DNA of 64,000 nucleotides from NCBI RefSeq assembly GCF_019649055.1, contig NW_026570401.1:1-64000 (forward strand), written 5' to 3'. Position numbers and translations under genes: made by a program. Under the pieces are notes generated by a model, which was given only the letters and a program-made list of their open reading frames with translations, was not told where the DNA came from and ran no database searches. Positions 18,129-51,399 of this stretch are shown here, piece by piece. The stretch's first letter is position 1. The number at the start of each line of letters is the position of its first letter. This stretch comes from Paramacrobiotus metropolitanus. Lineage: Eukaryota > Tardigrada > Eutardigrada > Parachela > Macrobiotidae.

Positions 18129-18178
18129 TTGTGTATCAAGTGCGACTTCTGCCATAATAAGATTCTTCCTCTTTGACA

Positions 18179-18445: not shown

Positions 18446-18479
18446 TTATCTGTTTTTCGGTCGCACATCCCTTCTTTTC

Positions 18480-18970: not shown

Positions 18971-18984
18971 TGCCCTAAAGGTCA

Positions 18985-19986
18985 TCACTGATCATTTGAA
19001 CCATTGTCACGGTTCCGATCGAAACGTCGTCTTTCTTTTTCATTGCGATCAGACGTTCGATCTCGAGGTTCTCTTTCCCTCTCTTGCAGCTCGTCTCCTT
19101 CGCTCCGGCTGCTAGCGACGCTGTGCCGATTTCGGTCACGTCGGCGCTGAATGCGGATCAGATGATCCCGAGCGTGAATTCGTTTCGCTTTTAACTCTTG
19201 ATTGTCCAAATCTGCTCGTGACCTTTTGCACAACTCGACATAATCGGTGTGCAACTGTTGATTCCTTCGTTCTCGTCGGCCCATTCCGTTATTCTGGGGT
19301 TCTCTGGCGAGTTCCGGCCGATGGCTGCTCTTATTGATACTGATTTCCTGGATGAAATCATAGACGAAGTCGGACGGTTGAATAAACCGAGTCCCCATTG
19401 TGGCTCTGATCCGTTCCGCACATCGATGAGCGTGCAGTTCTTCATCGAAATTCATTGCTGTTTGGACGTCCTTCAGCTGCTTTCTGGCCGTTTCCGAAGA
19501 GTTGAAATTCGCAATGGGCGTTCCCAGTTTTATGACCTGCGCGGTCAGTGCCGGCGGCATCTCCGTGCCTCTTTGAGCGCTCTTTCTCAGCTGATGATGC
19601 GTCTCGTAGTGGCCAAGTCTCGTCGCCAGAATCTTCTGGATCATGGCACAATGATCAGGCGGTGAGTCTGGTTTCTCCGACAATCCTAACGCAGCCCTTC
19701 CTGCGAGGAGTCTCAACGCCGCATTCACATGCCTCAGCACGAATTGTGCCACGTGGAGTCTTCTTTCCTTGATATCTCTGTAGCAGAACTGGGTCATTCC
19801 TGTTGGATCTGGCGTGTCCAACTTTGTTTCCAAGAGGCTGAGGTCAATCAGACTGACGAGCCCGCATTCTCTCGTTGGGAAGTAAAGAAGATTCGCTGAC
19901 TCTTGTGTGATGATCCGATCTTCCCATTGACCGTATTGGTACTCTTTCGCGTAGCCGGAATCATTGATGACCTGTCGCAGGTTCAT
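18985..19986 (-). CDS. Last coding frame downstream of integrase, 333 codons, unknown
   Basis: The longest uninterrupted frame of the element. Residues ~1-230 look globular and helical (an ESANLLYFP stretch, then LSLIDLS- and RRLHVAQFVLRHVNAALRLL-type helices). The last ~90 residues are extremely rich in Arg, Glu, Asp and Ser and are probably a disordered basic/acidic tail. No transmembrane helix or signal peptide is seen, so it is not an obvious env. The position 3' of integrase and the helical character parallel the frame at 47625-48488 in the other LTR element, with weak similarity around a S-L-I-D motif. It could be a structural (Gag-like) or accessory protein. The function is unknown. 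Confidence 0.5.
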   Translation of the reverse strand: MNLRQVINDSGYAKEYQYGQWEDRIITQESANLLYFPTRECGLVSLIDLSLLETKLDTPDPTGMTQFCYRDIKERRLHVAQFVLRHVNAALRLLAGRAALGLSEKPDSPPDHCAMIQKILATRLGHYETHHQLRKSAQRGTEMPPALTAQVIKLGTPIANFNSSETARKQLKDVQTAMNFDEELHAHRCAERIRATMGTRFIQPSDFVYDFIQEISINKSSHRPELAREPQNNGMGRRERRNQQLHTDYVELCKRSRADLDNQELKAKRIHARDHLIRIQRRRDRNRHSVASSRSEGDELQEREREPRDRTSDRNEKERRRFDRNRDNGSNDQ

Positions 19987-20160
19987 AAGAAACCAGTATA
20001 CTTTATCGAATTACTCTTTATTCCCCGGTTCAGTGCCCACTGAGCGGCAAATCTCTTTCGTCTATTCGAGGATGTCATTCATTTCGTATATCAGCTCAAT
20101 GGTTTGGAGTGACTGTCTCCTTGGAGCCGTGACCTTTGATTGACCTTTCTGATTTCCCTT

Positions 20161-20499
20161 CTATGATTCTGATTCTGGCGGTGCATTACTCGCCGCTTCT
20201 GCGTTTGTCAGCTGACGGTCAAGATCGAAAATGATGTTTCGTCTTGATGGTCGCATATCCTCGTCTCCATGGACTTCAATAACGTTAGAGGATGATGGGC
20301 TGCATTCCATGACCTCATCCGGTTGCCTTGCCGGTTGTTTCTCGGCGGACTTAAACGTTGAACAGACGCCATGGACCGTCGACTTCAATCTGCGCGGGCT
20401 TTTTGGTGTGCGGTGGCTCTGGTAGCTGGATGACCTTTTACTGCTGCTGTATGATTTGTCTCCAAACTCATAATCGTCCATGTTCAAGTTATCTCGCAC
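20161..20499 (-). pseudogene. Ser-rich coding fragment of the element
   Basis: A 112-codon frame with a Ser/Lys/Arg-rich first half and an acidic second half containing DLDRQLTNAEA. It overlaps the end of the preceding frame (20484-20954) in another phase, which suggests one ancestral protein broken by a frameshift. No domain is recognised. Confidence 0.35.
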
Positions 20500-20954
20500 C
20501 CATTCTTCATCATATGGGCTCTTTGATCAGGTTGATCTACCCGAGCCTTCGCTTCTTCCTTTTCTACTCCGTGAATCTTTTTCGCGACTTTGTATATCCT
20601 TTGCAGCCTGCTCAGCCTCCTGCTGCCTGTTACAAGTTTCATTGATTTTCTTGTGCTCTTCTGCCAATCGCTTTTCTTCCGCCTCTTCTTGGTGACGCTT
20701 TTCCCGGTGATCTCTTTCTGATCGGATACGTTCTTCGTCCCTTCTCTTCTGTTCCAAAGTACGCGTACGTCTTGCGTATCCACTGTATCTGTCGTCGCGA
20801 CATCTGTCCCGTGACCTTTCTCGAGAGCGGTCTGATGACCTTTCATAACCGTGATATCGTTCATCTCTCGGAGGCGATTTCGGGCGTTTGAATTCCTGTT
20901 TAAATTTCTCAAGGCCTCGACCACGTCCGTCTCTCGTTTCCGAAAGTTTCGCAT
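20484..20954 (-). pseudogene. Arg/Lys-rich coding fragment with KGH octamer codons
   Basis: A 156-codon, highly basic frame. Two AAAGGTCA octamers are read as Lys-Gly-His (MKGHQ and EKGHGTD). An overlapping frame (20527-20757) is rich in Glu/Arg/Lys and looks like a charged coiled coil (EKRHQEEAEEKRLAEEHKK), so the true ancestral phase probably switches in this region. It is part of the coding block downstream of integrase. Confidence 0.35.
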
Positions 20955-21047
20955 CCTGTTGATTCTTTCTTCGAGCGCGATTTTGATGACCTGAGACGGT
21001 TTGCCTCCTTTCGTCAGATTGACCTTTTCGTCCAGGAATATTTAGTA

Positions 21048-21404
21048 TTAGTCTTTCGTGACGGCCAGTGGATCTTGCAAAATGATGTCGATTTGCTGTA
21101 TCAGTGACTGTCTGATCACTGCTGCTTCTCCTTCATCTTGTCTCTTCAGTATCGCAGCTGGGACGGGTACATCAAGTCCCGCATGACCTTTAGCTGCACC
21201 GGCTAAACTTTTCTCTGCCGCAGCTTTCTCTCTTTCTTCTAAGCGCTCTTTTTCTGCTTCGCGCCTTTCTTGCACCATTCTCGCTGAATCTTCTTCAAAC
21301 TTCTTTTTGAACGCATCCGCTTCCGCTGTTTTTGGCGGTTCGAGCGCGACATCCCAACCTAGTCTGCGTCCGACCCACATCCGATATTTATCTTCCATGA
21401 TCAT
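21048..21404 (-). pseudogene. Charged coiled-coil fragment of the element
   Basis: A 118-codon frame with MIMEDKYRMWVGRRLGWD at the N-terminus, then about 45 residues of Glu/Arg/Lys/Ala heptad-like sequence that would form a coiled coil, then LDVPVPAAILKRQ. One AAAGGTCA is read as Lys-Gly-His. It belongs to the same downstream block as its neighbours and is separated from them by stops. No family is recognised. Confidence 0.4.
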
Positions 21405-21927
21405 TTTGTCTTCGGCTGAAAGTTTTCTCTATGCTTCCGCTAGAATCAAATGTCGGAACACATCTAAGTTTCCCCTTTTTGCTTCTTGTGGGATGACGAA
21501 CACTTGGTTGGGCATTGCGCACACACATTGCCAACAAGTGTAACGCTTGGTTGACAGGATATTATTCCGTTTACGTCGTCACACTCTTCATTGAAATTCG
21601 TTAACGGGTCACCCGTCACTTTCTTGAGTGGTGATCTTTGCTCCCTTCTCGCATTTTGGCCGGGTTGGCTCCGTTCAGCCATTTTGACCTTTCAACACGC
21701 AATCTCAAACCTTGTAATGCTATGACCTTTACTTTACCCATTCTCAACGCCTATTTTACGCTTATGGTAACTAGGCTATTCAGTGCCGAGCTGAGACTGT
21801 TCGCTGCTCGTTCATGATGACCTCTGGCATCCTTCTTGACTGAACCATTTTCAACAGTATGGGTGACCTTTCCCATCATAGCCCATTTGCTAAGTGCTTT
21901 AGTCCTTTCGCTAATTCAACTCTTCTT

Positions 21928-21965
21928 GCAGAGTGGGGTTCGAAAGTAGACTCGCGCTCTGCGAC
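21928..21965. repeat. Primer-site-like hairpin micro-repeat, copy 5
   Basis: GCAGAGTGGGGTTCGAAAGT followed by AGACTCGCGCTCTGC. The outer GCAGAG/CTCTGC arms pair. Same family as 22963-23011. Confidence 0.6.
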
Positions 21966-22235
21966 TTCTGGCCGTTGCTTCTTCTCGTGTGGTTAACATT
22001 CCTCCCACATATTGCTTCTTGCTGATGAATGACCTTTTTCTGCTTGTCAGCGCCATGAGCTTTCAGTCTTTCTCTGGTTGAGTGGTAAGTCTTTATCCGC
22101 TGAGGTTCTTTAACTGGGCGCTTCTCCTTTTTCTCACTTGAGCTCGGGTGACCTTCCGCCCGGCTCCAATTCCTGCTGAATTCTGTTGACCTTTAGCTAC
22201 CTTATCAGCTGCGTGACCTTTCCGACGCACGTTCT

Positions 22236-22514
22236 CTATTGACTTGGCAAGAGTCTTCCATTCGAGTCGAACGTTTGCTGATAAGATTCCCCGATTGGTA
22301 ATACTGCTGTCAGCTTTACGTTAGCTCCTACTTCTTTGGCACGTTCGGTAAGTATACCAACGGCTAATTTAGCCAGTGCTGAGACATCGTTTCGCTGTTC
22401 TTCTGGGAGCGACTCAATCGAACGTCTCAGGTCGCGCTTTAACTTGTCTGTCAGCCGTGGGAACTCTTCACCGGAAATTCCTTCGCTATTATCTGGGAAG
22501 ATTTCGCCTGTCAC
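22236..22514 (-). pseudogene. Helical coding fragment following integrase
   Basis: A 92-codon frame with a predicted helical centre (LTDKLKRDLRRSIESLPEEQR, then ALAKLAVGILTERAKEVG). No domain is recognised. It is the first coherent frame after the integrase C-terminus and probably starts the extra coding block of the element. Confidence 0.35.
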
Positions 22515-22962
22515 TGATTTACCAGATCTTCTCGGAATTCACCTTTCTGTCCATCTTTGGTTTCGTATTGTAGGATCAGTGTCTTGCAGTAACATTCCCA
22601 AGCCATTTCAGCAACCATGGTGTCCTATTTCACGTCAATGGAACGTTCTACGACAGTGAAAGTGGCTTTCATTAGCAGGTTTATTTCTGATGACCTTTAT
22701 GCCGTCCCAACTTCCAGTCTTAATATCATAAACTCCTATAAGCCTGATTTTCGGTTGTATTTGTTTTCGTCCTTTAGTTTTCCGGTCAAGTAACTCCTTT
22801 TAGGCTTCGTCTTCGTATTGGACTTCTCTTCTCAGAATTTGCTCTGGAGTCGGCTTCGACCTTTCGCTTTTCGATTTCGCTTGCGATCTGTTGACCAAGT
22901 TAGTCGGCCCTTTCTTTGACGGCTGCGATTTACTCTGCTCTGGAAAGGTCATCAGTGACATT

Positions 22963-23011
22963 GGTAGCGGAGCGTGGTGCGAAAGTAACTTTTGAATTAC
23001 GCTCTGCTACC
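22963..23011. repeat. Primer-site-like hairpin micro-repeat, copy 4 (best preserved)
   Basis: GGTAGCGGAGCGTGG, TGCGAAAGTAACTTTTGAA, then TTACGCTCTGCTACC: a 49-bp hairpin whose arms pair over about 13 bases. The start resembles TGGTAGCAGAG, the complement of an initiator methionine tRNA 3' end. On the minus strand it is read in frame as an AERNSKVTFAPRSATN-like peptide. Confidence 0.7.
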
Positions 23012-23186
23012 TCCCGAGCAGACTCGTCAATTTCTTCAACGGCAAGATTTCCCGCTCTTGATTCAGCTTCATTGTCACTGGCGTTTCAAAATCTTTAATC
23101 TCTTTTTTCGGTCTTCCTCTCTTTTCTTTTTCGACTCTTCCGCCTCTTTAGGCTCTTCTGCCTCTTTTGACTCTTCCGCCACTTCT

Positions 23187-23255
23187 GGTACAGAGCGTGG
23201 TTCGAAAGTATTTTGAACGTGCGTCTCTGCTACGAGCGTGGTTCGAAAGTAACTT
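23187..23255. repeat. Primer-site-like hairpin micro-repeat, copies 2 and 3 in tandem
   Basis: One complete hairpin (GGTACAGAGCGTGGTTCGAA ... GCGTCTCTGCTAC) is followed directly by a partial second copy, GAGCGTGGTTCGAAAGTAAC. The family also occurs at 21928, 22963, 24901 and 28661. Confidence 0.65.
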
Positions 23256-23297
23256 GGGAGCCGCGCACTATGCCTGGTTCATCATGACCTTTCTCAG

Positions 23298-24424
23298 TTA
23301 TTTCCAAAGCTGCCCTTTCAGCTTGACCTTGCCGTCCTTATGAACCGGTAGTGGCGGATGCAACGGTTTCAGTCGATGCACTGAAACGACTCGTAAGCCC
23401 GGTTCTTTCACCGCATCTTGCCCGATGATCTCGACTTCGTTCGGTCTCGGAAAGCTGAGAATCTTCCACACTTTATCGTATTTGTTCTTGAAGTCAGTTT
23501 GATTTTCCTTCTTCCCTTGTTTCGTGTCTTTCGGCAGTCTAACTAAGACTCGATCCCCGACTTTAAATTCTGGCTCTGATTTCTTCTTGTTGTAGATTTC
23601 CGCATGCTTTTCATAAGCATCTTTGATGTTGCACTTCCCGACTTTTTCTGAAGAGGTTAAATTTCTTTTCATGGTTTCCACCCATTCATCTTGGGCACCA
23701 TAATCGTCAGGAATGTTCGTCTTCGTCACTACGTCTTCTGGCATGGTCATCTCTCTCCCGTGAAGCATGTAATACGCTGATACCCGCCGTTGCGTGAACT
23801 GCACGGTTCATTGCTGATATGACGTATGGGAGATATTTATTGAATTTCCTTTAATTTCCCGCTTTCAGGTATTGCGACAATCCATCACCGATGGTCTGCG
23901 TCTGTCTTTCAACTTGTCCTTGACCTTCAGGATGGTACGCCGTTCCAAACGTGTGTTTGATTGGTGACCTTTTTCAGAACTTCTGCGTTGAAATGTCTTC
24001 CGCGATCCGTGTGGAGGATATGTGGCGCGCCGTGCACCAAGATCACATGCTTCACGAATATTTTCGCAAATTCTTTCGCGGTAGCTGTTTTCATTGGCTC
24101 CGCTATGACTTACTTCGTCAGCTGGTCGATGAAGACCGCAATGTACTTGTATCCCCGTTTCTTCGTTGGAAGTAGAGGTCCTTTTAGGTCCGCATAGACT
24201 ATGAAGAATGGATGTCTGACTTTGATTTATTGGAGCTTTCCAGGTGGACATTTTCTTGGCGTCTTTATGAATTGGCATCCCTGGCACGCGAGGATGTAGT
24301 TCTTGACGCCCTTGCTCATACGGTCCCGGTAATATCTGTGCCTGATCGCGGCCAGCGTTTTTTTGAAGCCAAGATGACCTGCTGCTTTTTCATCATGCAG
24401 TGCATCAATGATCGCCCTTCTCAT
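23298..24424 (-). pseudogene. Ty3/Gypsy integrase, broken
   Basis: Three domains can be read in order. The zinc-binding HHCC domain (24424-24280) has LHDEKAAGHLG and ACQGCQ. The DDE core (24230-23830) shows AVFIDQLTK (first Asp), HTDRGRHF (second Asp) and HPEGQGQVERQ (Glu). The C-terminal domain (23804-23298) has MLHGREMTMPEDV, YNKKKSEPEFKVGDRVLVRL and a WKILSFPRPNEVEI strand region. The enzyme would insert the element's cDNA. Stops follow LTK and KAGN, one frameshift lies at an AAAGGTCACC in the middle of the core, where about ten residues are also missing, and another lies before MLHG. It is therefore inactive. The integrase at 50.7-52.2 kb is a related but distinct copy. Confidence 0.9.
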
Positions 24425-24520
24425 TTGCAGCGGTACTACGTATGATCTTTCAAGTCTTTCTTTCTGGTCTTTGATGCCATGCAGTATGCTATTCCATAGC
24501 TGATAATGCGTCTTAAACTT

Positions 24521-25267
24521 TTACCTTTTATCTGCATCTTGCAGGTGCCCCAATTCATCAATGATCATCGCCAAGTGCGGATCTTTTAACTGCTTGTTCC
24601 GCAACTGCAAATTCGTATCGTCTTCTTCTTCTTTTTCTTCCTGGAGATTGACGATGCAGACTATTGCAGTACTGAGTTCATTCCAATCTTTGATGACCTT
24701 GCATCTCGGGAGTGGTTTGTGACCTTTCTCGATTTTCTTTGGGAATCTTAGCAATCTGATCGGACACTCTTCTGGTATGTATTCAGAGAGAATTTCTGCT
24801 TCGCGTAGGTCATTCCGGTCTACCCTTTTCTGACCATCTTTCGTGACCTTTCCATCTTTTCGTACTGGAGTTTCTTTTCTCACTCTGTTGACGTTTATCT
24901 TGGTAGCAGAGCGGGGTTCAAAAGTAAGCGTTGAATTACGCGCTGCTTGAGGATCACGCTCTGCTTTTGCTTTCTCTTGCGACATAATCCTTCTCATGTC
25001 GGCTTTCAACCTTTCTTTTCTTTCTTTAGCCAGTTGCACGAAGAATTGCCAAACTTCAATTGGAGGTTCTTCCCTGTTGAGTTCATTCTTGTAAACTTCG
25101 AAATTTGGGATTTCATCGTATTCTTCTTCATTGCAAGTGGGATCTTTAATTGGCGCTCTTGAAAATGCATTGGCGTTGTCGCAGTATTTGCCGGGCTTGT
25201 ATTCAATCTTGAATCGGTGACCTTGGAGTGGCATTGCCCATCTTGTCAATCTGGGATTCATGCACAA
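24521..25267 (-). pseudogene. RNase H tail and RNase H-integrase linker
   Basis: The first ~45 residues (NPRLTRWAMPLQGHRFKIEY, PGKYCDNANAFSR) are the end of the RNase H region of a Ty3/Gypsy pol. The remaining ~200 residues are a charged linker of unknown function. It includes a peptide coded by a hairpin micro-repeat (QAARNSTLTFEPRSATK) and two octamer-coded sites (DGKVTKDG and EKGHKPL). The frame is open throughout despite these insertions. Confidence 0.75.
24901..24949. repeat. Primer-site-like hairpin micro-repeat, copy with TGGTAGCAGAG start
   Basis: Begins TGGTAGCAGAGCGGGGTTCA and ends TTACGCGCTGCTTG. The first 11 bases equal the complement of the 3' end of a typical animal initiator methionine tRNA. 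It sits inside the RNase H-integrase linker frame without breaking it. Confidence 0.65.
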
Positions 25268-25525
25268 CTTGTTCGATTCCGAAGAATAGAAGAACTCAGA
25301 AGTTTCGTCAATGCTTTATGATCCGTTCGCACTGTGAACTCGGAATAGTCGATGTACGACTTGAACTTTCTGACGGCAAAAACTACCGCCAATCATTCCC
25401 GCTCTGTTACCCCGTAGTTCTTTTCCGCTCCATGCAAAACGCGGCTTGCATATGCAATGGGGTGTCCGTCTTGGGACAAGATCGCACCTTGCCCTTCCTT
25501 AGATGCGTCACACTTGATCACTGTC
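25268..25525 (-). pseudogene. Ty3/Gypsy RNase H domain, broken
   Basis: The frame reads [16 protein letters not shown] (first catalytic Asp), then VTERE followed by a TGA where Cys or another residue is expected before LAVVFAVRKF, then TVRTDHKAL with the later Asp. It is joined to the RT by a one-base frameshift near 25530 and to the following frame by another near 25270. The domain would remove RNA from the RNA-DNA hybrid during reverse transcription. Dead in this copy because of the stop and shifts. Confidence 0.85.
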
Positions 25526-26476
25526 GGCTTTGTTGGATCGAACTCCTCAAGACTGGATCCTTGCACAGTGCTTCTTTAAGGTTATTGAATTCTTGATCAT
25601 GGAAATCTGACCAGTCTCTTTTAATATTCTTCTCGTGTTTCAGCAATTCATAGAGAGGCGCCCTCTTTTGCGCGTATCCAAGGATGAACTTTCTGTAGTA
25701 GTTCGCTAATCCAAGGAATGACCTCAACTGCCGTTCAGTTGTCGGTTTCTTTTGGCCGTAAACTGCCATGAGCTTTTCGGGATCCATTTTGATACCATTC
25801 TCGCTGAGGATATGCCCCAGGAATCCCATTTCACTCATGCCAAATTCGCATTTCGTCGGCTTAATTGTGAAGCCTGCGTCAAACAAACTTTGAAGGACAT
25901 TCCTTAAGTTCTGCATGAAGATTTCCCAGGTCTTCCCCGCGAAGATAACATCGTCGATATCGCCGAAAACGCAACCCATTCGCTTAGCGTTCGACAAGAC
26001 TTTATCCATACAAAGTTGAAAGGTCGCAGGTCCATTGCAGTCTCCAAAAGGCATTTTTTTGAAACGGAACATTTCGTCCTGTGTGACAAAAGTCCTCTTA
26101 TCTTTTGAGGCTGGATCCATTAGGATCTGCCAGAAGCCACTTTGCAAGTCCATTTTGCCGTAATATCTGTTTCCTGCACATGCGTCAAGCAGTTCGTCTG
26201 GATTCGGCAAAGGATAGTTATTCTTCTTCGTCAGCTTGATTAGCAGGATGTAGTTGACGCAGAATCTTGTTCCCATGGTTCCATCACCGTTTTTCTTTGC
26301 GGCCAGTGCGACCAGGAAACTCCATTCCGCATCGGACGGCTCAATTCTTTTGTTCTTCAGTTAGGTCTGGTCCTAACTTTATTCTTTCGATAATGTCGTT
26401 CAGTTCTTCTTTCGTCTTTTCGTCAACTTTTGGATCCTCAGGTATGTTATTCACGACGGCAGCCGAGTTGACCTTT
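25518..26476 (-). pseudogene. Ty3/Gypsy reverse transcriptase
   Basis: The frame runs from ELNDIIERIKLGPDLTEEQK (about 26430) through a frameshift to IEPSDAEWSFLVALAAKKNG and RFCVNYILLIKLTKKNNYPL. Motif A is YYGKMDLQSGFWQI, motif B is FKKMPFGDCNGPATFQ, and motif C is FGDIDDVIFAG. Motif C lacks the usual Tyr of Y-x-D-D but keeps both Asp. The connection domain LGLANYYRKFI follows. The order and motifs are those of Ty3/Gypsy RT. The 252-codon main frame is intact, but the N-terminal join and the RNase H join are shifted. The region upstream of the RT (26460-26530) codes RKGQFLGYVEHYE and ENVKVNSAA, both using AAAGGTCA in frame. Confidence 0.92.
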
Positions 26477-26696
26477 ACGTTTTCTAGGTGTTCGTAATGT
26501 TCAACATAACCCAGAAATTGACCTTTCCTGACTGTCTTTCGGTTTTTGCTCCAATTTTCTATGACGATTCCAACCGAGCTCCGATATGGTCCGTTACCCC
26601 CGTTCTCGGTCGTACTTCATTATCTTTCTGAGGAGTCGCTGTATACATCAGCTTTTGTCCCCGGGGTACATGAGCGCCTATCTTGACTTTCACGCG

Positions 26697-27367
26697 TTAC
26701 GCGAGGTTTGGTCTTAGCTTGACTCGTTGGTCGCTATAGACTTTTATGGCTCCTTCTGGGATTCTCGCTCTCTGTACTTTGATTCTTCTAATGATGATCT
26801 CTTTTTCTTGATCTTCGTTCTGTTCATCATCCTCATCAAGATCGAGCAGATCTTCTTGATCTGAAAGGTTACTCACTCCCGAATCTTCAGAAGTAGTCGA
26901 GTTATCACTCGTGCTTGAGAATTCCGAATCGGATTCGCTGTTATTATTAGCTTCAGGCATTTGACCTTTGCTTTTTTCTTCAATTGGCCTCTCATTGACT
27001 CCTTCGTCTTCGCTTTCCGTTGAAAGGTCATCGTCTTCGTCCTTGGGAGCGCGAAGTTTTTTCGCTTTCTGTTTTCCGGGCAGAGGTTTGTCCGTTTCCT
27101 TGGACTTTCGTCCGTTTCGCGCAGCAATCCTCGGATTAGTTCGCGTTGCGCGAATCCTTGCTCATGACCTTTCTTCGTTTTCAGGTTGTGACCTTTCTGC
27201 TTCTCCCACTGCAGCCCTTCCTCACCAGTATCGGGTGACCTTTCGTTGACTTTCGGAGCTGACCTTTCCGGCTCCTTCTCCTCCAGCAACGCGCTCAGCG
27301 ACCTTTCGCCCTTCTCGGCTGGTGGCCGTTCCTCACCAATGCCGAGTGACCTTTGAAGTGATGCCAC
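26697..27367 (-). pseudogene. Acidic and basic frames between protease and RT
   Basis: Two overlapping frames. One (26697-26960) is very acidic (repeated Ser/Asp/Glu) and ends in IIIRRIKVQRARIPEGAIKV; the latter stretch resembles the region just before RT in Gypsy polyproteins. The other (26873-27367) is basic, with octamers read as Glu-Arg-Ser (ERSLS, ERSAPK, ERSPDT) and Lys-Gly-His. No enzyme domain is seen. Probably a linker of the pol polyprotein. Confidence 0.4.
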
Positions 27368-27470
27368 TAACGACGCCGCCTATTTCTCTTTCTGAGACAT
27401 TAGAGCCTTTTTTGCTCTGTTACTGGGATTCCGTTTGCCTTATCCCGAATTGCTTGGTTCAGTTCCTTGA

Positions 27471-28004
27471 TCATTTGGGACATCTCATACGCTGTGTGCG
27501 ATGGTTCTTGTTCGGCGCCTCTGCTGTTTTCTTGAGCAGCGCTTGTGCTAACTTCCTGTTCTTTTTCTTTAATTTCTTCGGCGCTTGTGCCGTTCTCTTT
27601 GTTCGTTTCTTCTTCGGCGCTCGTGCCGTCTTTTCAGCGCTTGTGCTTTTCTCTTCACCGGCGCTTGTGCCGTGACCTTTCGTTTTATTACCACCTCCGA
27701 AGACCCAGTTTGCCAACAGTTCTTCCATGATCCAGTCGTCACTCGGTATGGTCTCGTACATGCACCAAGTCTCTCCGCCTCGTTTGGGATACTCCACGCC
27801 ATCCGAATCTGGTGCAAAGGTCACTTTCTTCCTTCCTGGGTAACCAAATGGCCCCGGTGCTCGTCTTTTTCTTAAGACTTTGAGTTCTGGCACTTCTCCC
27901 ATGAACACCGGGACTTCTTCGAGGATTTTCCCCCATTGTTTGTACCACTGCCTTAAGTTTACCTTCTTGAGATAGGCCTGGAAAAGGTCTAATAGTTCGT
28001 ACAC
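27471..28004 (-). pseudogene. Coding block ending in an AQAPKK-type Lys/Ala/Pro repeat
   Basis: Residues 1-100 are mixed (YLKKVNLRQWYKQWGKILEE, RKRRAPGPFGYPGRKKVTFA, PSDDWIMEELLANWVFGG). Residues 105-177 are repeats of the TAQAPKK/TARAPKKK kind, histone H1-like and probably nucleic-acid binding. The DNA of the repeat (GGCGCTTGTGCC units, 27480-27680) is a minisatellite. The unusual feature is its placement between protease and RT. Confidence 0.45.
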
Positions 28005-28103
28005 CGGTGTGCCGAATCCAATTAGGAAAATGACCGTTCTTCCTTGACCTTTCCATAAATAATTGACTCGAAATTCCCAGAATAAGTCAACCCTAGCATT
28101 TTC

Positions 28104-28454
28104 CTATATTTCATTTCCTTCCATCGCTCGTCGCCTTTCTCTATCGAGCTTCGTTATCGCATTGGTGTACCATGGGTCGCTCTTATATGCTTTTCCGGGA
28201 ATAAAGTTATCAGCTTCTTGCTGCCAGTGGTTGAGCCACTTTCTTCTGGAGATAATGTAGTTTTTTACTACCGATAGCCATTCTCGGTAGCACTGCCATA
28301 GGTAAGTTGCTTTTGGCAGCTCCGGCATAGAAAGCGTTCTCATGATTGATTTGACCTCTTTCCCTTCTTGTCTTTTATGACGTGCAATTGCTGCATTGCA
28401 TTTCGGCCATTCCGAAAGTCGCCTTGCGTCATTTCCTGCATGCACTGAGCGCAC
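28104..28454 (-). pseudogene. Unassigned coding fragment between protease and RT
   Basis: A 116-codon frame with a Trp/Tyr-rich helical centre (ATYLWQCYREWLSVVKNYI, SRRKWLNHWQQEADNFI) and a basic end. An overlapping frame (28340-28690) supplies an acidic upstream part with C-A-Q-C and is likely the same ancestral protein in another phase. No family is recognised. Confidence 0.4.
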
Positions 28455-28647
28455 TTTTCCTGAGGTCCTGCTATCGAAAAGTCATCGCTATCGTGCCAAT
28501 CGTGATGATAAGAGGTTGCTCTCTCTTCCGCCGTCCATTCTCTTGGTTTTGGACGAACGACGACGAGATTGTCCTCTTCATCTTCCGTACCCGTCCATTC
28601 TTGATCGCATTCGATTACGCTATTTCCTGACGATACCTCGATGACTT

Positions 28648-28938
28648 CTATATCTTCTTTGCAGAGCGTGGTTCGGAAATGTGACGACAACTACGCTCTG
28701 CCACATCTTTACGCGAGCGTGTGCCTTGACCTTTCAACTGCTCTCTGGCTCTATCTCGTATTTCGGAGAATAGCGCTCGCTCGTCACTATTCATCAATCC
28801 AGGCTCTTTTCTGGGCCCAACCATTCTCGTGCCCAGTGCCTCTAGTACTGGGATTAGCCTTGACCACTCCATTCCTGGAACGAGTGACAGTTTTTTTGCA
28901 ATAAGCGCTACTGCTTGCATTATCTTTATCTGTTCCAT
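28648..28938 (-). pseudogene. Helical coding fragment with in-frame hairpin micro-repeat
   Basis: A 96-codon frame: IMQAVALIAKKLSLVPGMEW, IPVLEALGTRMVG, then DERALFSEIRDRAREQLKG. It ends with the peptide AERSCRHISEPRSAKK, coded by the hairpin micro-repeat at 28661-28703. No domain is recognised. Confidence 0.4.
28661..28703. repeat. Primer-site-like hairpin micro-repeat, copy 1
   Basis: GCAGAGCGTGGTTCGGAAAT followed by GTGACGACAACTACGCTCTGC. The GCAGAGCGT/ACGCTCTGC arms pair over nine bases. Same family as 22963-23011. Confidence 0.65.
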
Positions 28939-29150
28939 TGTTGGTAACCTTTGTTTCCCATTTGACTTGGGTGACCTTTTGCTTCTTTTACCATTTTCCG
29001 ATCCCTGTGCCTCTGGTACTGGGATAGCCGGTTCCCCCGAATCATTTCTTGGCTGAAGTTCGGTGACCTTTCCTGCGTTAAATTTTGCAGAGGATTTCGG
29101 CTCATCATCTTCAGCTTCAGTTTCTCTTTCCTCCTTGTCGTCCCCGTCTA

Positions 29151-29774
29151 TTAGGACGAATTTCTTTGCGTGGAAGTCGAATCCAGTATGACTTGGACAT
29201 CGTCTGATGCTGGCCTGACGTAGGACGAGTGTTGACTCGTCTTCTTTCTTAAGGTCACTGGTGCTACGCAGTAGTGCGTTATTTCGAACCCTGACGCCCC
29301 ACTGATCCCTTTGATCATCACCTTCTTTCTTGGCGGCAGCCGTACAGTCTGGAGGTCATTCCTCTCGCAGAACTGTTGGCAAATCAGAGACGTCTCAGCA
29401 CCAGTGTCATGCATCGCCATGACCTTTTTATTTCCCACTTTGACTTCGTGTGTGCAAGCTTCGATCCTCTTCGGTAAGTTTCCATCTTCGAGTTTCAAGA
29501 CTCTTACTCGGCACTTGACTGGGATAGGGGGAGCGTGCTTGCTCTCTATCAGGCCTTTCGAGCTCCAACGATCAATCCGTTTCGGTACGTCGGGTCGCAT
29601 GTCTGAGAGCTTTTCGATCCGCTTTGACTTCGGTAAGACATTCGCCTGCTCCTTCGCAGCGGTCTCTTTACCCGTGACCTTTGCCACTTCGCACGTTTGC
29701 CCCTTCTCTTGTGCGTTCTCGTGACCTTTCATCACTTGTGCAATAACTTCGTATTGTGACCTTTCGTTGCGCAC
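29151..29774 (-). pseudogene. Ty3/Gypsy-type aspartic protease domain
   Basis: A 207-codon frame whose second half has VKVGNKKVMAMHDTGAETSLI, with the catalytic Asp-Thr-Gly of retropepsins, followed by the flap-like region KVMIKGISGASG. The N-terminal ~100 residues are basic. Four AAAGGTCA octamers are found here, read in three different ways: ERSQ, MKGHE, KVTGK and KVMA. Retropepsins cut the element's polyprotein. Unusually, about 2.7 kb of unassigned coding sequence separates it from the RT. Confidence 0.8.
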
Positions 29775-30031
29775 GTCTTTGGACGGCTTTTCTCGTAATT
29801 TTCGATTATTTCTTGTGTAATTTGATCTGTAAGAATCATCTCGTCGCCTTCGTCCTTTTTCAACTCCTCTGGTGACCTTTCATAAGCAACCATCTTATAG
29901 TCGTTTTCTTTCATCCACTCTTTAATCTTCGTCGCAATTTCGTTATTTGTGCCAGTTGGGTCAACCTGGGAGGACATTTCATCAGTTCTGGGCAGTGACC
30001 TTTCGTTGTTATTCCGGATTGCTTGCGTCAA
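29732..30031 (-). pseudogene. Upstream coding fragment, possible Gag end
   Basis: A 99-codon acidic frame (MTQAIRNNNERS..., EIATKIKEWMKENDYKMVAY, DEMILTDQITQEIIENYEK) upstream of and overlapping the protease frame. In a Gypsy element this place is the end of Gag, but no CCHC knuckle or capsid motif can be seen. Further octamers occur here (about 29873 and 29998). Identity is inferred from position only. Confidence 0.35.
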
Positions 30032-30753
30032 GTCATATGACTTCTCCTTCTGTGGATTTTGCGCTAAGTCCGGTGACCTTTTCGGTCTAGAACTGAAAAA
30101 TCCTCCATTTGGTGACCTTTATAAAGGTACTTTCTCGCCGTATTGAGGCCGTGATTCACCCTTCTCAATCCGCTCTCAAAACTGACAGTTGTTTTCGTCG
30201 CATTGGTTTTTCTCTTTCCGGTACTCTTGTACTTTCGGTTGTGAAGCTTTCACGAGTTCCTCGAGATGCTTTCTCATCCGCCAGTCCTGTCTCTCTCTTT
30301 CTTCCCAGTAAACTTCTCTGGAATGGTTGATCCAGTCACTGTTCACGAACTTTAAGTATTAAAACTCTTTCAAAACTTTTTAAAATTTTTTTGTTCCGCT
30401 TAAATAATGGTTTTATAAACAATTTATAACGAGTTGCTAGGAGAAATTTAGTATTATTCACTTAACAGCTGTTATATGAATTTTGTCGTATCGAAATGGT
30501 AGCAGGTAGCATCCACTTACTACTTTATACAGCACGCTGCGCTCGAACGAGCACGGCAAGCCGTTTTTGCGCCTCTTATTAATTTTTTTTTACCGTCAAG
30601 AGGGCAAATTTATACGAGTACAACAATCATCCTAAAATACGAAGATACAAATATCCAAAAATAGTAACAGCGTAGATTTTCAGTTAGTTTTACCAAGGAA
30701 TCTTGAACTGTGACAAAATGGGTTACCAAGTGACGAAAAGCTATCGAACCGCA

Positions 30754-30897
30754 ATCTGCGGCAAAATAGCTAACCAGCTACCTTGCCGCTCGAACTGCGG
30801 CAAAATAGCCTATGGCTACTGGGCCGCAGTGTGCGGCAAAATAGCCAACCAGCTATAGTGCCGCATATTGTTCTGACTGCGGCAAAATAGCCTTAGC
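30754..30897. repeat. Palindromic TGCGGCAAAATAGC array 2
   Basis: Four forward half-sites of TGCGGCAAAATAGC, paired with diverged reverse half-sites (CAGCTACCTTGCCGC, GGCTACTGGGCCGCA, CAGCTATAGTGCCGCA). Each pair can form a hairpin with a ~6-base loop such as CAACCA. It ends 12 bp before the NTPase-nuclease frame, and that frame stays open back into the last unit (to 30877). Confidence 0.88.
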
Positions 30898-30909
30898 CAA
30901 GAAAAATTT

Positions 30910-33108
30910 GTGCTGGAGAGGTTTTTTAGATTTACTATCCTTGTAGGGTTCGAAACAGACAGAATAACGGGTGACGCACCTTATGAAATTGACCTGACTG
31001 AATTTGAAATGCTGCCGTCAAACCCTACGAGAACTGTGCCAACTCGCGACAAAATTCATGTCAAAGAGAATATCCGTCTGGAATGCAAGAGCGTTTTCCA
31101 CGACATTAATGAGTATGGCAATTACGGCACGTTCCCAACAGCTTTCGTTCAAAACTTCGAGCTCGGGGAAATCGTCTCTACAGAAGAGAATGAGTTACGC
31201 CATATCTATCTAAAAAGGGCTGAATTAAAGAGGCTACTCTGTGCTATCACGCGAAAAATAAATTATCGGATGCCCGCCGATAAGGAATCGCTACTTATTT
31301 GTGGATCTCCTGGAAGCGGGAAGTCCCTTTCTTGCTATGCGTCTGCATTGCATATTTTTAGATTTAACAATGGAATTACAATCGCTTGGGTTAGTTTACC
31401 GAGGCAGAGGAACAACACCAAAGCGAGTTGTGTCATTTTGTGGCACTCGCAGAATGGTACAGAACCGGTATGGAATGTGAAGACATTTGAATTTGACAAC
31501 AACATCGGCGGATTAAAAAACGCCCTTAAAGACGAAATTTTAATGAGGGCCTGGCAGCCTGTGGTTCTGTTCGTGGATGGCGTCCGCAGCAAGGAAAAAA
31601 TGGGCGTGTCGGTGTTCGCCACATGCGGACAATGGCGAAATTCAGTGGGAGACCATAACTTGCGTCATACCATTTTTGTTTCATCAAATTTTTATTCTCT
31701 GATGGAAAATTCTGATGTGGCGGAGCTGGAACCTTTCTTCTATTTGTCGTGGACCGAAGGAGAACTGGTTGGTGCTCTGGACAATCCGACATTTCTTCGC
31801 CAAGTTTATGGCAATATCTGTTCCGAAGAGTCTGGCTCTTTCCGTACCAAATACTACGACCGGCGCCAAATCCAAAGGTCATTCGATCAGCTGCGGGACG
31901 ATGCTGAGACAACATTGAGGAAGCAATTCCTTAAAACGGGCACTTCTGCGAGAGCAGCATTCCTCGATTACGAGAAAGTGGTGAAGGAGTTGGACTATGC
32001 AGTCGACAAATTACGCAATCACTCAACCCTAATAAGTCCTTACCAGGCTAATGTTCTTGCTGATGAGTGCATACATTTATGCGATCGGTTATTTGCGTGC
32101 CACAGTAAAAACAGAGCACCGCCCCCGCCTGACACTTCCAATCGAAGAAACGTTGACATATTTTATTTATCTCATTATGTCAAGGAGGCAGCGAAACTGG
32201 TCGTCAGCCTTGAGGATCTGAACCGGTTCGGTAGAAGTTACATTGACAACCCATACACCCTTTGCTGGCTATGGGAAGATTTCGTGTATCAGAGTTTGAC
32301 AGTCCAGCCTGCGGAACCATTTGTACTTCATATGTTTAGATCCGATGTGGAAGCCCGTCTACAAGTGCCACAGAAAAGAGAGACGAGACAAAGCGTACAC
32401 CCCCAGACACCCGAACAGAAGGAGCGAGAGAGACAGATCCTGGAAGAGAGAGCGAGAGATGTTTTGCCGTTAGAGTGGCCGAAAACCAACGCATTCTATC
32501 TTATTGAGTATCTGAAGGCTAATCCACAGAAAAACCCGGGAATCATTCGGTATGACATGGTTATAGCCGAACTCCTGCCTGCTTTCGCAATGCGTCGTAT
32601 CTCTGGGGTAACTGCCCATTATTATTTGCAACCGGTGAGAAGAAACCATCCTGGATTTGATTTGGCTTATATCTATGTCAGTGGAGGAGCAGGTAGTTCG
32701 AGCGAGGAGATCACTATTTACTTTGTGGATATGACAGTCAGCGAAAGCAAATCACTTGATAAGAAACTCGAAGAGATCCCCTTGTTCCTCACAGTCGCGA
32801 GCAGTAGAGGCTTGTTCAACCTGGCATCTGTCAAGGAAATTGAATTTATTCTGTTAGCACCCAACGTGCTTGTGAATCGTGTAATTAAGCCAGTGGAAGT
32901 CGGATTATCCGTTTCTAATGATCTGCGCGGAGAGTGCTATCTGGAAAAAGATGTCCCCCTGACTATTCAAGAGATTGAAGAAGCTTTTATTTCCGGAATT
33001 ACCCGAGTGGCTGCACGGTTGGGACTGAGTCAGTGCAAACCACGTTGGAGACTGACTAGACGATATAGCCTCGGCTTCGCGGAGCCAGTGTACACAGAAG
33101 TGTCGTAA
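30910..33108 (+). CDS. Crinkler/RHS-type P-loop NTPase with C-terminal nuclease-like domain
   Basis: An uninterrupted frame of 732 codons. Residues 130-139 form a Walker A loop (ICGSPGSGKS), residues 217-225 a Walker B strand (PVVLFVDGV), residues 253-263 a sensor-like HTIFVSSNFYS, and 277-290 FYLSWTEGELVGAL. After a helical middle and a Lys/Arg/Glu-rich linker (490-516), residues 580-615 read PGFDLAYIYV and ITIYFVDMTVSESK, a plausible PD-(D/E)XK-like core (Asp583, Asp607, Lys614). NTPase followed by a restriction-like fold, with the fD...vTvs..K pattern, is the layout of Crinkler effectors and trypanosome RHS proteins, thought to descend from transposon proteins. The first codon here is GTG and the first ATG is at 31009; a TTTTTTAG acceptor-like site at 30929 suggests an upstream exon could supply the start. 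Palindrome arrays flank it. It is the only long intact gene in the window. Confidence 0.7.
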   Translation: MLERFFRFTILVGFETDRITGDAPYEIDLTEFEMLPSNPTRTVPTRDKIHVKENIRLECKSVFHDINEYGNYGTFPTAFVQNFELGEIVSTEENELRHIYLKRAELKRLLCAITRKINYRMPADKESLLICGSPGSGKSLSCYASALHIFRFNNGITIAWVSLPRQRNNTKASCVILWHSQNGTEPVWNVKTFEFDNNIGGLKNALKDEILMRAWQPVVLFVDGVRSKEKMGVSVFATCGQWRNSVGDHNLRHTIFVSSNFYSLMENSDVAELEPFFYLSWTEGELVGALDNPTFLRQVYGNICSEESGSFRTKYYDRRQIQRSFDQLRDDAETTLRKQFLKTGTSARAAFLDYEKVVKELDYAVDKLRNHSTLISPYQANVLADECIHLCDRLFACHSKNRAPPPPDTSNRRNVDIFYLSHYVKEAAKLVVSLEDLNRFGRSYIDNPYTLCWLWEDFVYQSLTVQPAEPFVLHMFRSDVEARLQVPQKRETRQSVHPQTPEQKERERQILEERARDVLPLEWPKTNAFYLIEYLKANPQKNPGIIRYDMVIAELLPAFAMRRISGVTAHYYLQPVRRNHPGFDLAYIYVSGGAGSSSEEITIYFVDMTVSESKSLDKKLEEIPLFLTVASSRGLFNLASVKEIEFILLAPNVLVNRVIKPVEVGLSVSNDLRGECYLEKDVPLTIQEIEEAFISGITRVAARLGLSQCKPRWRLTRRYSLGFAEPVYTEVS

Positions 33109-34576
33109 CAGTTTCCAAAAGTGTTTTAACAGTTTCGTTCGTTAGCCAGTTCCGCTAAAAGCAGAAACAGAAAACAAGTTTCGCGGAGTGAATTTGCTAC
33201 CGCCCCGAGCCATTTGTTTAAAATGAGTGACGTTATGTAAGGTTTTTAATTACTTCGATTTATCTCGCATCCCGGCCACTTTCAGTTTACAGTTCCACGT
33301 TCCGGCCACCGTTAAGTTGCCCTGCATGAACCCACATGAAAAACAACTTTCAACGTTACACAGGTAATTTGCAGTTTTTGAGGGCCTTTATTCATAAACC
33401 GAATACAACATGAAGCAGCTAATACATTCAACGCAAAACGCAGTTAAAAAATCTATTCCAATTTCCATACTTAACAATTGAACAAATTTTTTAATTGGGT
33501 TTTTTGTTGAATTTGATTTATTGTTTCTGGTTGTATTCGGTTCAAATCAAGTTTCTCAAAAGTTACAAATTAGCTGAGTATTAAGTAGTATTAAAAATAT
33601 TTTTTTTATGTGGGTTCATCCAGGGAACATTATGTTATCGGTGGCCGGAAATAAGGTTTTGATTAACATTAACAGTAAACTTGGTAAGAACACCAAGTAT
33701 TTTCTGTAAGCAAAGCACAAGGTGGACGCGCTAATGCCAGTTCTGACTTCTGATTGTGTGAGTGTGCGACTTGTCGACAAACATGCCTGGTATTCCTCGC
33801 TATACTTGAGTTTTAAAGATAGTGAACTTAGCCTTAAAGCTTGGATTTTTCATTATCGGAGTCGCTTCATGAGATTGCTCGACCATCAAATCCGCCCGCT
33901 GCCACCCAGCTGTCGAGCATTACACTCGTTCATTATCGTAGCTGATGCAGTGCGCACGACATTTTTCGTATACCGGACTTTGCGATGCATTCTCATCTAC
34001 AGTAGCGGCTCCAAAGTTTACTGTGTGACCAGTAGGGAAATTATGGAGCGAGCAACAAGACCGATAAAATTTGCGCGTTTCTTAACATAGAAGACCTTCA
34101 AGGAAGGAAGAAGGAAGAAATAGCAAGAAAGTAGCCAATTAGTTGTCGTATGGACAAACCTAGAGAACAAACATGTAATTTTTAAGGCTTAGCTTGACCA
34201 AAACTGATCAGCAGTTGAGGAATCCACAAAAACGGTGTGTAATTATCGACCGGAGCGTAACGAAGGTCCTCTTAATTCAGCACTAATACAAAAATGTATT
34301 TGTGTCCGTTACGAAAGGTTGTTACGAAAGGTCATTACGACTTTGTTTCAGCCTTGTTAAAATTATTGATTATTTTATTGCTATTTGTTTAGTGCTATTT
34401 TGCTAATGCTATTAATTTCAAGTTATTGTACGCGTACAGTTATGTTAATTGTTAGAATTTGCTGGGCGATTTTCTACCCATGTTTTTCGACAGAATTTCC
34501 GGAGATTTGTTAGAGCGTGATTTTTGTTCGTCGAACAAATTTTTAGCTTCGAACATTTTAGAATTTACAAATTGAA
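33109..34576. other. Noncoding stretch between the NTPase-nuclease gene and array 3
   Basis: Mostly AT-rich. A 122-codon frame at 33722-34090 has no recognisable domain. Near 34180 lies a diverged piece of the 1.5-2.6 kb tandem repeat. At about 34310-34330 there is a short direct repeat GTTACGAAAGGT containing one AAAGGTCA. No clear 3' processing signal for the NTPase gene could be fixed. Confidence 0.4.
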
Positions 34577-34730
34577 GTGGCTATTTTGCCGCACTAGGGT
34601 GGGCGAAATAGCTTGTTGGCTATTTTACCACACACTGCGTTAAAATAGCAGCTCAGCTATTTTGCCGCACTATGGTCGGCAAAATAGTCAGTTGGCTTCG
34701 GCAAAATAGTCAGTTGGCTACTTTGCCACA
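34577..34730. repeat. Palindromic TGCGGCAAAATAGC array 3
   Basis: GGCTATTTTGCCGCACTA starts the array, followed by alternating GCGAAATAGC, GGCTATTTTACCACA, TTAAAATAGCAGCTCAGCTA, TTTTGCCGCA and two copies of TCGGCAAAATAGTCAGTTGG. It is more diverged than array 2. Together with array 2 it encloses the NTPase-nuclease gene in a ~4-kb interval. Confidence 0.85.
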
Positions 34731-34739
34731 CCATTATTG

Positions 34740-37700
34740 TCTCGCCGTGCACTTTTAATGCGCTCTGTGCGGTAAAGTGCCGGAAGTTCTGTAAAACAGC
34801 GCTAATTAAGAGCGTCCAGAGGTTCTCCCAGAGTTTTCCGGTTCTTCTCCGGTAAAGTCCGGTTACCCTCCTGTGAAGTCGGTTTCCCGACCGGTGAAGT
34901 TGGGTTTGTCACCGTTGACTTGCGTTCGAAAGTCGTCCTCTGGGACCGTGTAGCCGCTCTTTGGTTGATGTCCGGCTTAAGTTGGGTACCATGTCACCCT
35001 GTTGGGGCGACACCTAGTCGCCCCCGTTTCGCGAAGCAGCGGCACTAGTTGGCGCCTGGTGAAACATTCCGTTCCTGAAGAAATCAGTTTATTGTGGCAC
35101 CTATTAGGCGCTCAAGACCGGATTGAGGTTTCACTGGGTTCACCGCATTCTCGCCTAAAGGGCAAGCTGACCCCGGGCTCAGCTTTAACTGGCTCGGAGG
35201 AAATTCTGTTCTGGGCGTCCTTATAGCTGTCACATGGATCAGTCGCGTAAGTTAGTTCCTGGTCCTGAGATTTTGTCCGTCGGGTCTGAACCGGTTGCTA
35301 TTCCATTCTATTCCGTAGCTCAGAGAAAATGCTTCCATACCGGACTTCTCTGTGACTTCCATTCTTGTACATAGGAGGCCATGGGTTGTCGGAAAATACT
35401 CTTCGGCTTTTCCTTGACTGAAGCCGATGCCTCTAATATCGGGATGGACTTTATCAACTTTGACGGTTCGGTAACTAATGCATTCTGGGCTTGTATTACC
35501 TTAACGGCGCTCTGCCTTGCACCGGTACAATCTTGGCGGGTTTGACGGTTTTCACCGGTGAATGGTGCGACGGTTTTCACCAGTTCAACCGTATGTGCAC
35601 ACTGCTGGCTGCCTCTGGTATCGGGACAGAGGTCATCAGCGGATTGGGAGAATTTACAGCCCGGTCGGCGGATTTTTCTTTCGGGACTTTGCGTGATGAT
35701 TTACGTTTCGGCGCAACAAATCCGTTATGCTGGTGACCGACAGGGCGGCTTGGGTTATGGCTTGCTCACTGGAATGGGTAGCTGCTCCATTGTCATTGTG
35801 CTTAGGCGTAAGCCTCCTTGCATTCAGCGACTTCATTGCCGTTGGCGAATTCCCTTTTTCGGCCCGTGGGAGGCAATAATGTCCGCGGTTTATACAGACG
35901 TTTCATCCAAGGCTTTACCGAGAGATCCTTCCGCGGTTTTGACCAGCATTCCATCCGCTGTATGCATGGTGAAGGGTGCAGAAGGCATTATTGCGTCCTG
36001 GGAAGTCGCATCGCAATGTCTCGATGAACCACAAAGTCCGGTTGCCCCGGCAATGTCTGTTGCGCTTTTCGGTTTGGTCGGCCCGGCGTCGCAAGTGGCA
36101 CCGGCCGGTCTGAAAACGTTATTGACGGCAAACGACCCGCGAATCACGGCAACGTTGTTGACGCCGATCGCTCTGTGGCGTTATTGACACCAGACACCCC
36201 GGCAGCGTCATTGCTATCTGGTAATGCGACTCCATTTTGGGTGCCGTGTGTTTCAATTAAGATATTCTTATCATTTTGAAACCCACTGAGGCCTGCTTGG
36301 ACTACCTTAGTACTATATCTTAATGCCGGTGTGGTCGCTCGTCCCGTAAACCAGACTTGGCACAGGTGGTCACTGACCATATCCGGAGCGAGACGACGGC
36401 GTTATCGTCATCAGTCGGTCTAACCGTACCTAACGTTCAGGTCGCCCGGCGGCGTTATTGTTTTGAGGTGGCTCGGTTCTGTGCAGTGCGTCCAGCGTTC
36501 TCCTGTCGGAACGCAGTTCCCCAGCGCAACTGTTGGCAGTATAGGACGATCTCGCTATGGTTGGTTTCCGACTTCTACGGTTAGTATGGTCCCGTTCTGG
36601 GCTTTTAGTCCGATAAGAGTTTTTTTGCCGGGCGGAAACTCATTGGCGCAATGTCGGGCACATGTACCAGGTCCCACGGCTGTTTTCTCGGTTTCTTCCT
36701 TTGACACTGTGACGGCTTTCTGGTGCACAGGGTTATCCTTTTCCGGTGCTTTGGTTGGAAGCAGAGGTCAGTGGAGCCAATAGTGCTCACCGGCCAAACA
36801 GGTTCCCCATCGAACAAACCGAGTGTATTTCACCACCGCTGGTTGGTGAAATACACTCGGTGCTCACCGGCCAAACAGGTTCCCCATCGAACAAACCGAG
36901 TGTATTTCACCACCGGGGGGGGATTAAACCGGTCCAGGGTGTGAATGCCGCAGAGCTGCTGCATTTGGCCGGAGATGGTTTAGTGTCGCTCTTGGCCTTG
37001 GTAGTACCCACCACCGTCCGGTAGGATCCCTCCGTTGGCTCCAATTTCGGTGCCGGGTGGTAAGATGGGGCACCTCGTAGTCTATCGCACCTCGTGGGCG
37101 CGGTGGTGCAACCAAGGCTGCGCAGTTTGCCGCCCCTATCGGGGCACCCACGTCATGACTCTGATGCCGGTTCATATCTCCTGACCTCGGTTATTATTGC
37201 TGCCGTTTCGGCTGCTACTTCCCCGTTGTAACTTTCGTTTGGCTAGTGAATCCGTTACCTGGACTACCGGCTGAGGCCAACATTACTGCCGTAGTAAGCA
37301 GCGGGTCTCGGGTCACTACGGGTGGCATCCCTATTGCGGACGCACGGTGCTTAGCCCGATCCCATCCTTGGGCCGCCGGCGCATTCGGCCGATGGCTTCC
37401 CCAGTCGGCACATTGCACTTCGCTTTTCTGGTGGTGAATTGCCGAAAGTGTTTCCGGAAGTCAGCCGTATTTTCCGGCATCCCAATATCCAAGTCCCACT
37501 GTAATGCCTGTTTGGTTACGCAACTCTGTAGGTAATTCTTTGCCAGCTGCTCTAAGAGATTGATACAGCCAGCCGGAACCTGCGGCACAGCCGGGAACGG
37601 CACAGCTGGGAACGGAGAAGGGGTAACGACTCATTCGAGAATTCTGAAGATAAGGTAGTTGCATTCCGCAGCGGGCTGATTAAAATTACACTGAAGCTGC
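34740..37700. other. GC-rich block, possibly decayed coding sequence, unidentified
   Basis: About 3 kb markedly richer in G and C than its surroundings, full of CCGG, GTCGGC and CCGGTGAAGT-like motifs. Frames up to 209 codons occur on both strands (35558-36187 plus; 36144-36380, 36605-36817 and 37331-37603 minus), with none dominating. Some minus-strand stretches look protein-like (KVIQAQNALVTEPSKLIKS at about 35450; NEFPPGKKTLIGLKAQNG at about 36620) but are in broken phases. I recognise no domain. It might be an old element body or a decayed repeat-type protein. Confidence 0.35.
36784..36915. repeat. Two identical 55-bp units around a palindrome
   Basis: The 55-bp unit TGCTCACCGGCC...TTTCACCACCG is present at 36784-36838 and again at 36861-36915 with no difference that I can see. 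The 22 bp between them form, with the end of unit 1, a near-perfect palindrome (CCGAGTGTATTTCACCA / TGGTGAAATACACTCGG). Confidence 0.85.
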
Positions 37701-51340: not shown

Positions 51341-51399
51341 AGCGCCTCCCCCTACTGCTGCCGACCGAAGCTGTCGCACCTTAGTACCGTGTCTTCGCC

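Follow-up and report, generated by a model that had tools for sequence, protein, structure and literature searches.

Background

Crinkler-RHS-type (CR) proteins, which have so far been treated chiefly as oomycete, fungal and trypanosome effectors, couple nucleoside triphosphatase (NTPase) and nuclease modules. Proteins combining an NTPase with a restriction endonuclease (REase) domain are given as about a quarter of CR C-termini in PMC5289972, which also describes plant CR headers with DNA-binding folds of the Myb-like helix-turn-helix type, perhaps aimed at intracellular invading DNA. An animal case is already in print in Tribolium Medea1, which PMC11342252 places among CR-NTPase8 and CR-REase7 elements. 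Mutator-like elements (MULEs) are defined by target duplications of 8–11 bp and long terminal repeats (PMC6446971), and they have already been listed for tardigrades, though Paramacrobiotus is not named there (PMC11071193). Both kinds of sequence meet at a locus of the tardigrade Paramacrobiotus metropolitanus. The window, i.e. the whole stretch of DNA analysed, comprises bases 1-64000 of contig C181, which starts at window base 1, in an assembly of 169.8 Mb and 533 contigs. It is strongly supported that this locus holds the last exon of a probable ATP-driven nuclease gene flanked by two separate transposons of the same family.

The best explanation, held with considerable confidence, is that the locus juxtaposes two unrelated components, namely MULE ends and an exon of a gene for a zinc-finger/P-loop NTPase/PD-(D/E)XK-type nuclease. 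On this view the appealing idea of a mobile-effector cassette is false. In its place stand a Mutator/Foldback-like family of high copy number and young age, whose autonomous copies in the tardigrade are very large, and an animal protein family, apparently restricted to this lineage, that resembles the NTPase-nucleases.

Hairpin arrays as MULE termini

The hairpin arrays on either side of the gene are composite terminal repeats of a high-copy MULE family. Their core motif, TGCGGCAAAATAGC, has 607 exact sites in the genome (298 + 309) against one for the reversed control, and the window contains 18 sites with at most two mismatches where 0.51 are expected. As single-stranded DNA, both gene-flanking arrays fold better than 200 of 200 dinucleotide shuffles (z −7.1 upstream, −5.9 downstream). 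Mutual comparison of 17 array regions, together with the window, identified the arrays as element ends. One end type starts CGRAGTG(G/A)CTATTTTGCCGCA and the other finishes TGCGGCAAAATAGCCWTAGCC; the right terminus has 82 exact copies genome-wide and its control none. Arrays of ~150–180 bp stand at either end in inverse orientation. Within an element the two arrays are 70–75% alike, and the outermost ~8 bp differ between left and right. The duplication test covered the nine elements with both ends, the unpaired L018, L020, L021, L027, L028 and L034 being excluded. Outer flanks of 9 bp are identical in eight of these nine, while the ninth matches at 7/9 bases. Sizes among the tested elements range from 615 bp (L019, 1251-1865) up to 21.7 kb.

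The MULE transposase profile PF10551 has 39 matches in the genome, two of which, C1:463249 and C1:899075, lie inside elements bounded by target duplications on contig C1. The first falls within C1:448187-469897 (21,711 bp; parts L022/L046/L047/L023), which also encodes a Ulp1-type peptidase (PF02902, 29 bits), and the second within C1:885467-905719 (20,253 bp; parts L024/L025). Each has a perfect 9-bp duplication. The ends of the two elements are 99.8% and 99.4% identical over ~2 kb, which marks them as recent copies. With its 9-bp duplications, long inverted ends and PF10551 transposase, the array family falls within the MULE definition.

Several further observations concern this family. At 20–22 kb, the two C1 elements are unusually large as well as recent. 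A 318-aa open frame adjoins C1:448187-469897 on the right, outside the element (L023:3005-3961, −). A tandem array that reads as (PGTAQ)n in one frame lies inside two MULEs, at L016:4276-5057 and L026:3461-3952.

Two elements, one on each side of the gene

The upstream MULE occupies 16501-30898 (+; 14,398 bp). Its 9-bp target duplication, AAGAAAAAT, stands at 16492-16500 and in identical form at 30899-30907, and the + strand of the 64-kb window has no further occurrence of this 9-mer. The left-end hairpin array lies at 16508-16635, and matches to other left ends (L018, L019, L034 and others) begin at 16498-16501. The right end, 30757-30898, consists of an array (30757-30891) and the terminus TGCGGCAAAATAGCCTTAGCC, which ends at 30898. 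The element is non-autonomous, and the genome-wide PF10551 profile search gave no match inside 16501-30898. It holds retrotransposon coding sequence, including a reverse transcriptase match (RVT_1, 74.7 bits) at 25521-26276 (−). No direct repeat pair of at least 90 nt was found within 16500-30900, so this retrotransposon could not be dated. A site resembling the core motif (two mismatches) at 16471-16484, directly outside the left end, is perhaps the trace of an older element at that spot.

On the other side, the left part of a second element of the family, comprising an array and inner sequence, occupies 34573-36811 (+) and begins 1.5 kb past the stop codon of the gene. Positions 34578-34697 share 95% identity with L026 near its end, and three blocks (34578-34808, 34995-35492 and 36152-36811) match L016 in order, starting from its second hairpin. 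The window and the next 10 kb yielded no duplication and no right end for this element, and an exact right terminus is likewise missing from the rest of contig C181. For these reasons its outer end at 34573 is a presumed one, and truncation or rearrangement of the element is probable.

Both gene-side arrays carry the polarity of ends whose elements point away from the gene. This polarity, the separate duplication of 16501-30898 and the low copy number of the gene against the high copy number of the arrays place the gene between two MULE-family elements and outside both. The first-pass annotation had described the arrays as enclosing a single unit. They are indeed present and are transposon terminal repeats, but they belong to two different MULEs, one per side, and the array upstream of the gene pairs with the third array at 16508-16635, which that annotation did not include.

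The 3′ exon

The open frame at 30910-33108 has 732 codons from a GTG and 743 from stop to stop, whereas 200 mononucleotide shuffles of 30001-34000 produced stop-free runs of at most 245 codons. It had been taken for an intact gene; the frame is open as claimed but is not a complete gene, as its first 16 codons are intron. The comparison that defines the exon is with P0002, 'uncharacterized protein LOC129593069 isoform X2 [Paramacrobiotus metropolitanus]', whose exons lie on contig C59 at 95–99%. In the annotated LOC129593069 the acceptor TTTTGCAG is followed by ACGAAGAA and the exon starts ACGAAG; in the window CGAAACAG is followed by ACAGAATA and the exon starts ACAGAA, in the same codon phase. 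The shared acceptor and phase set the window exon at 30959-33108 (+; ~716 codons and a stop), encoding the NTPase and probable nuclease. The remaining 3′ intron end, aligned with the annotated acceptor, is 30908-30958 (+; 51 nt, ending CAG).

The upstream MULE is therefore an intronic insertion that ends 60 nt short of the exon, a distance that includes the duplication. The 5′ exons, queried as residues 1-575 of P0002, found nothing better than E 1.3 in the window and, across the assembly, nothing apart from the C59 gene. They could lie in an assembly gap, because contig C181 starts at window base 1. The window copy is probably either cut off from its 5′ exons or dependent on splicing across the 14-kb insertion, which makes its own activity doubtful.

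The encoded protein

Assignment of the exon product as a P-loop NTPase is well supported by motifs. Walker A, GSPGSGKS, lies at 31303-31326 (+; residues 132-139 of the 732-aa frame) and Walker B, LFVDG, at 31567-31581 (+; residues 220-224). Across the four paralogues compared, which diverge down to 23–24% identity, G132, P134, G135, G137 and K138 of the first motif and D223 and G224 of the second are invariant. The NTPase part resembles Orc/Cdc6, TnsC and Avs5. A G-x-S-x-R segment (G344, S346, R348) is also invariant in all four. CR-specific NTPase motifs include a GG-x-PR-like segment that follows the NTPase.

The C-terminal domain is likely to be a PD-(D/E)XK-type nuclease, for which the structural models give weak support. 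These models show a helix-strand-strand-strand-helix-strand order, and FokI, MspJI and PaqCI are among the first eight Foldseek matches with such a weak model as query. The proposed metal ligand, D584 (32659-32661, +), would fall where strand 2 of the nuclease fold begins and is invariant in 4/4 paralogues. The rest of the proposed site is D607-x-T609 with K614 (32728-32751, +), in which T609 and K614 are again invariant and D607 is replaced by Q in the paralogue on C64.

Neither the window protein (E ≤5) nor P0002, L031 and L070 (E ≤1) matched a curated Crinkler/RHS Pfam profile, in searches where HMMER filters limit weak matches, and the Pfam hints were limited to nSTAND3, nSTAND_NTPase5 and AAA-type families. 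A sequence search of the PDB with one sequence gave no match; a profile against the PDB reached Hsp104 (0.0028), with the match confined to the P-loop region. Matches to PADLOC PDC-S02 (2e-4, residues 408-466) and, in one family member, to the NCBIfam RFC large subunit (4.5e-4) may be due to chance. The fold search with the C-terminal domain against viral structures gave none at E 0.001. One locus in viral contigs (residues 105-150) and three Micrarchaeota loci in prokaryote genomes (residues 113-165) were not counted as relatives, as each covers only a P-loop stretch of ~50 residues.

The motifs read by the first-pass annotation, GSPGSGKS, Walker B and the C-terminal D...DxT...K, are thus all present. 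Its naming of the protein as an NTPase-nuclease of the Crinkler/RHS families is supported for the apparent architecture, in which a P-loop NTPase would be joined to a restriction-fold-like domain in a fitting order, but not for membership, as no such family appears among the Pfam matches.

Paralogues and selection

With three family members as queries, the genome search found the family at 11 places: the window, C59 (two), C64, C110, C86 (two), C503, C79, C31 and C192. The best preserved is LOC129593069 (C59:721-723k, with 5′ exons to 730k), a multi-exon gene with zinc-finger 5′ exons; residues 1-575 of P0002 hold a C2H2 region (PF12756, 26.2 bits; cut-off 26.9). The second C59 copy, at 631k, has a 622-aa frame. 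L070, at C64:161900-164200 (163k), has a 598-codon open frame and the nuclease motif D...FFQITTAKEK. The places on C110, C86 (two), C503, C79, C31 and C192 are broken or short pieces. Its members are few, scattered across contigs and in part decayed. Protein searches for wider homologues gave P0002 only, each having scored just the 7,996–7,998 candidates with most words in common, so that absence elsewhere is weak evidence. A limited literature search found no published description of this family.

Core motifs with at most two mismatches are absent from 10–20 kb around C59:722k, C59:631k and C110, where the one site with three mismatches is at chance level and lies inside an exon. Window aside, the nearest of the 82 exact right termini on a family-bearing contig is C59:862926, ~130 kb from the C59 gene. 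Given this distance on C59 and the array-free flanks at C59:722k, C59:631k and C110, the loci whose flanks were compared, the MULE ends show no link to the gene family.

Window and C59 exons are identical at 0.50/0.63/0.38 of first, second and third codon positions over 681 codons, and the Nei-Gojobori (NG86) method gives dN 0.65 and dS 2.55, the latter near saturation (pS 0.725). The pair has evolved under protein-level constraint, as read from these substitutions, which says nothing on the present constraint of the window copy.

Alternative explanations

Arrays of one family on both sides within 4 kb, both of them transposon ends, gave the first-pass annotation its autonomous mobile cassette at 30754-34730, with the arrays as the cassette's own subterminal repeats. 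This is now barely credible. The left array is the end of 16501-30898, an element with its own perfect duplication, and array polarity is inside-out relative to the nine paired elements tested; the duplication at 16492-16500 and 30899-30907 and this polarity rule the cassette out. No target duplication bracketing the gene was found, nor any other gene copy with arrays: the gene is low copy, the arrays occur genome-wide with no link to it, an outcome that the first-pass annotation had itself named as refuting its view, and three paralogous loci are array-free over 10–20 kb. Composite transposition, in which the outer ends of both MULEs could move the block from 16501 to beyond 34730 with the gene, would suit a gene between two elements of one family, and MULEs are described in PMC6446971 as carriers of host gene fragments. 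It is very improbable, however, as a separate duplication at the inner end (30898) is what a simple insertion leaves, and neither the window and the next 10 kb nor, for an exact copy, the rest of the contig revealed a right end for the second element.

Other alternatives accept the exon but differ on the protein. It could be a signalling NTPase of the STAND/AAA+-like kind, whose C-terminal domain would be a sensor or adaptor and not a nuclease. The range of the Pfam hints, the weakness of the models behind the nuclease fold and the replacement of the usual (D/E)xK by D/Q-x-T, with the lysine five residues further on, all weigh in that direction and against a nuclease. Nonetheless, D584, T609 and K614 are invariant though most of the domain has drifted, and type II restriction enzymes head the Foldseek list, which leaves a signalling NTPase rather unlikely. 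Less probable still is a selfish gamete- or embryo-killer like Tribolium Medea1 (PMC11342252), now decaying in the tardigrade genome. Such a killer would share the two-domain order, and the family is lineage-restricted at the sensitivity used and has several broken copies, but its best-preserved paralogue has several exons and includes a zinc-finger part.

The preferred account, MULE ends beside an exon of a nuclease gene, can be put as a mechanism. Copies of 20–22 kb elsewhere in the genome encode the transposase, which presumably binds to the repeated 14-mers and inserts elements with 9-bp target duplications. One of these elements entered the intron, 60 nt ahead of the last exon, which encodes the catalytic half of the proposed zinc-finger/P-loop NTPase/PD-(D/E)XK-type nuclease protein. 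The N-terminal C2H2 part, known from the intact paralogue, would most likely aim the protein at DNA, with the NTPase as an NTP-driven switch or assembly engine. The nuclease would then cut DNA, either against invading or transposing DNA in the cell or as a selfish toxin. A bolder proposal, to be regarded as speculative, is that these zinc-finger-headed, Crinkler-RHS-like NTPase-nucleases of tardigrades form a small, rapidly decaying family at work within the animal's own cells, where they provide a DNA-guided anti-transposon defence or act as a Medea1-like killer, and that the window member is being disabled by its possible target class.

Other features of the window

An inverted-repeat pair at 33300-33650, with arms TTCCGGCCACCGTTAA and TGTGGGTTCAT that are 79–94% complementary, is possibly a small miniature inverted-repeat transposable element (MITE) lying 3′ of the gene. 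Further along, a 253-aa frame at 51297-52055 (+) has a match to the integrase core (rve, 29.2 bits; cut-off 32.6).

Comparison with known systems

As described in PMC3169594, Tm1, a Mutator/Foldback family of root-knot nematodes, has composite terminal repeats of many ~14-bp units, two unlike short motifs outermost, 9-bp duplications, and both small MITE-like and transposase-bearing forms, all of which are shared by the tardigrade MULE. The sequences differ, and the tardigrade 14-mers alternate in orientation to give hairpins. The tardigrade family also differs from the Tm1 described there in its autonomous copies of 20–22 kb, one with a Ulp1-type peptidase.

The protein family is closest in plan to the CR proteins set out in PMC5289972, which have a P-loop NTPase, then a helical part, then an REase-like domain, behind a variable N-terminal header, an order that the tardigrade protein appears to share. 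It differs in its animal host and in the C2H2 zinc finger that forms the header of the paralogue, and no sign of a secreted effector was seen, though no test was aimed at it. Domain order and motif pattern fit the Crinkler-RHS type, albeit with a weakly modelled REase fold. The tardigrade family would thus work like a CR protein, as far as its sequences indicate, with Crinkler/RHS membership unproven; unlike CR proteins it matches no curated Crinkler/RHS profile, and for this reason it is not filed under that name. Medea1, compared by description only, is also an animal protein with CR-NTPase8 and CR-REase7 and differs in being described as a mobile maternal-effect killer (PMC11342252). Should the tardigrade nuclease prove active, it would represent a zinc-finger-aimed relative of these conflict proteins at work in an animal's own cells.

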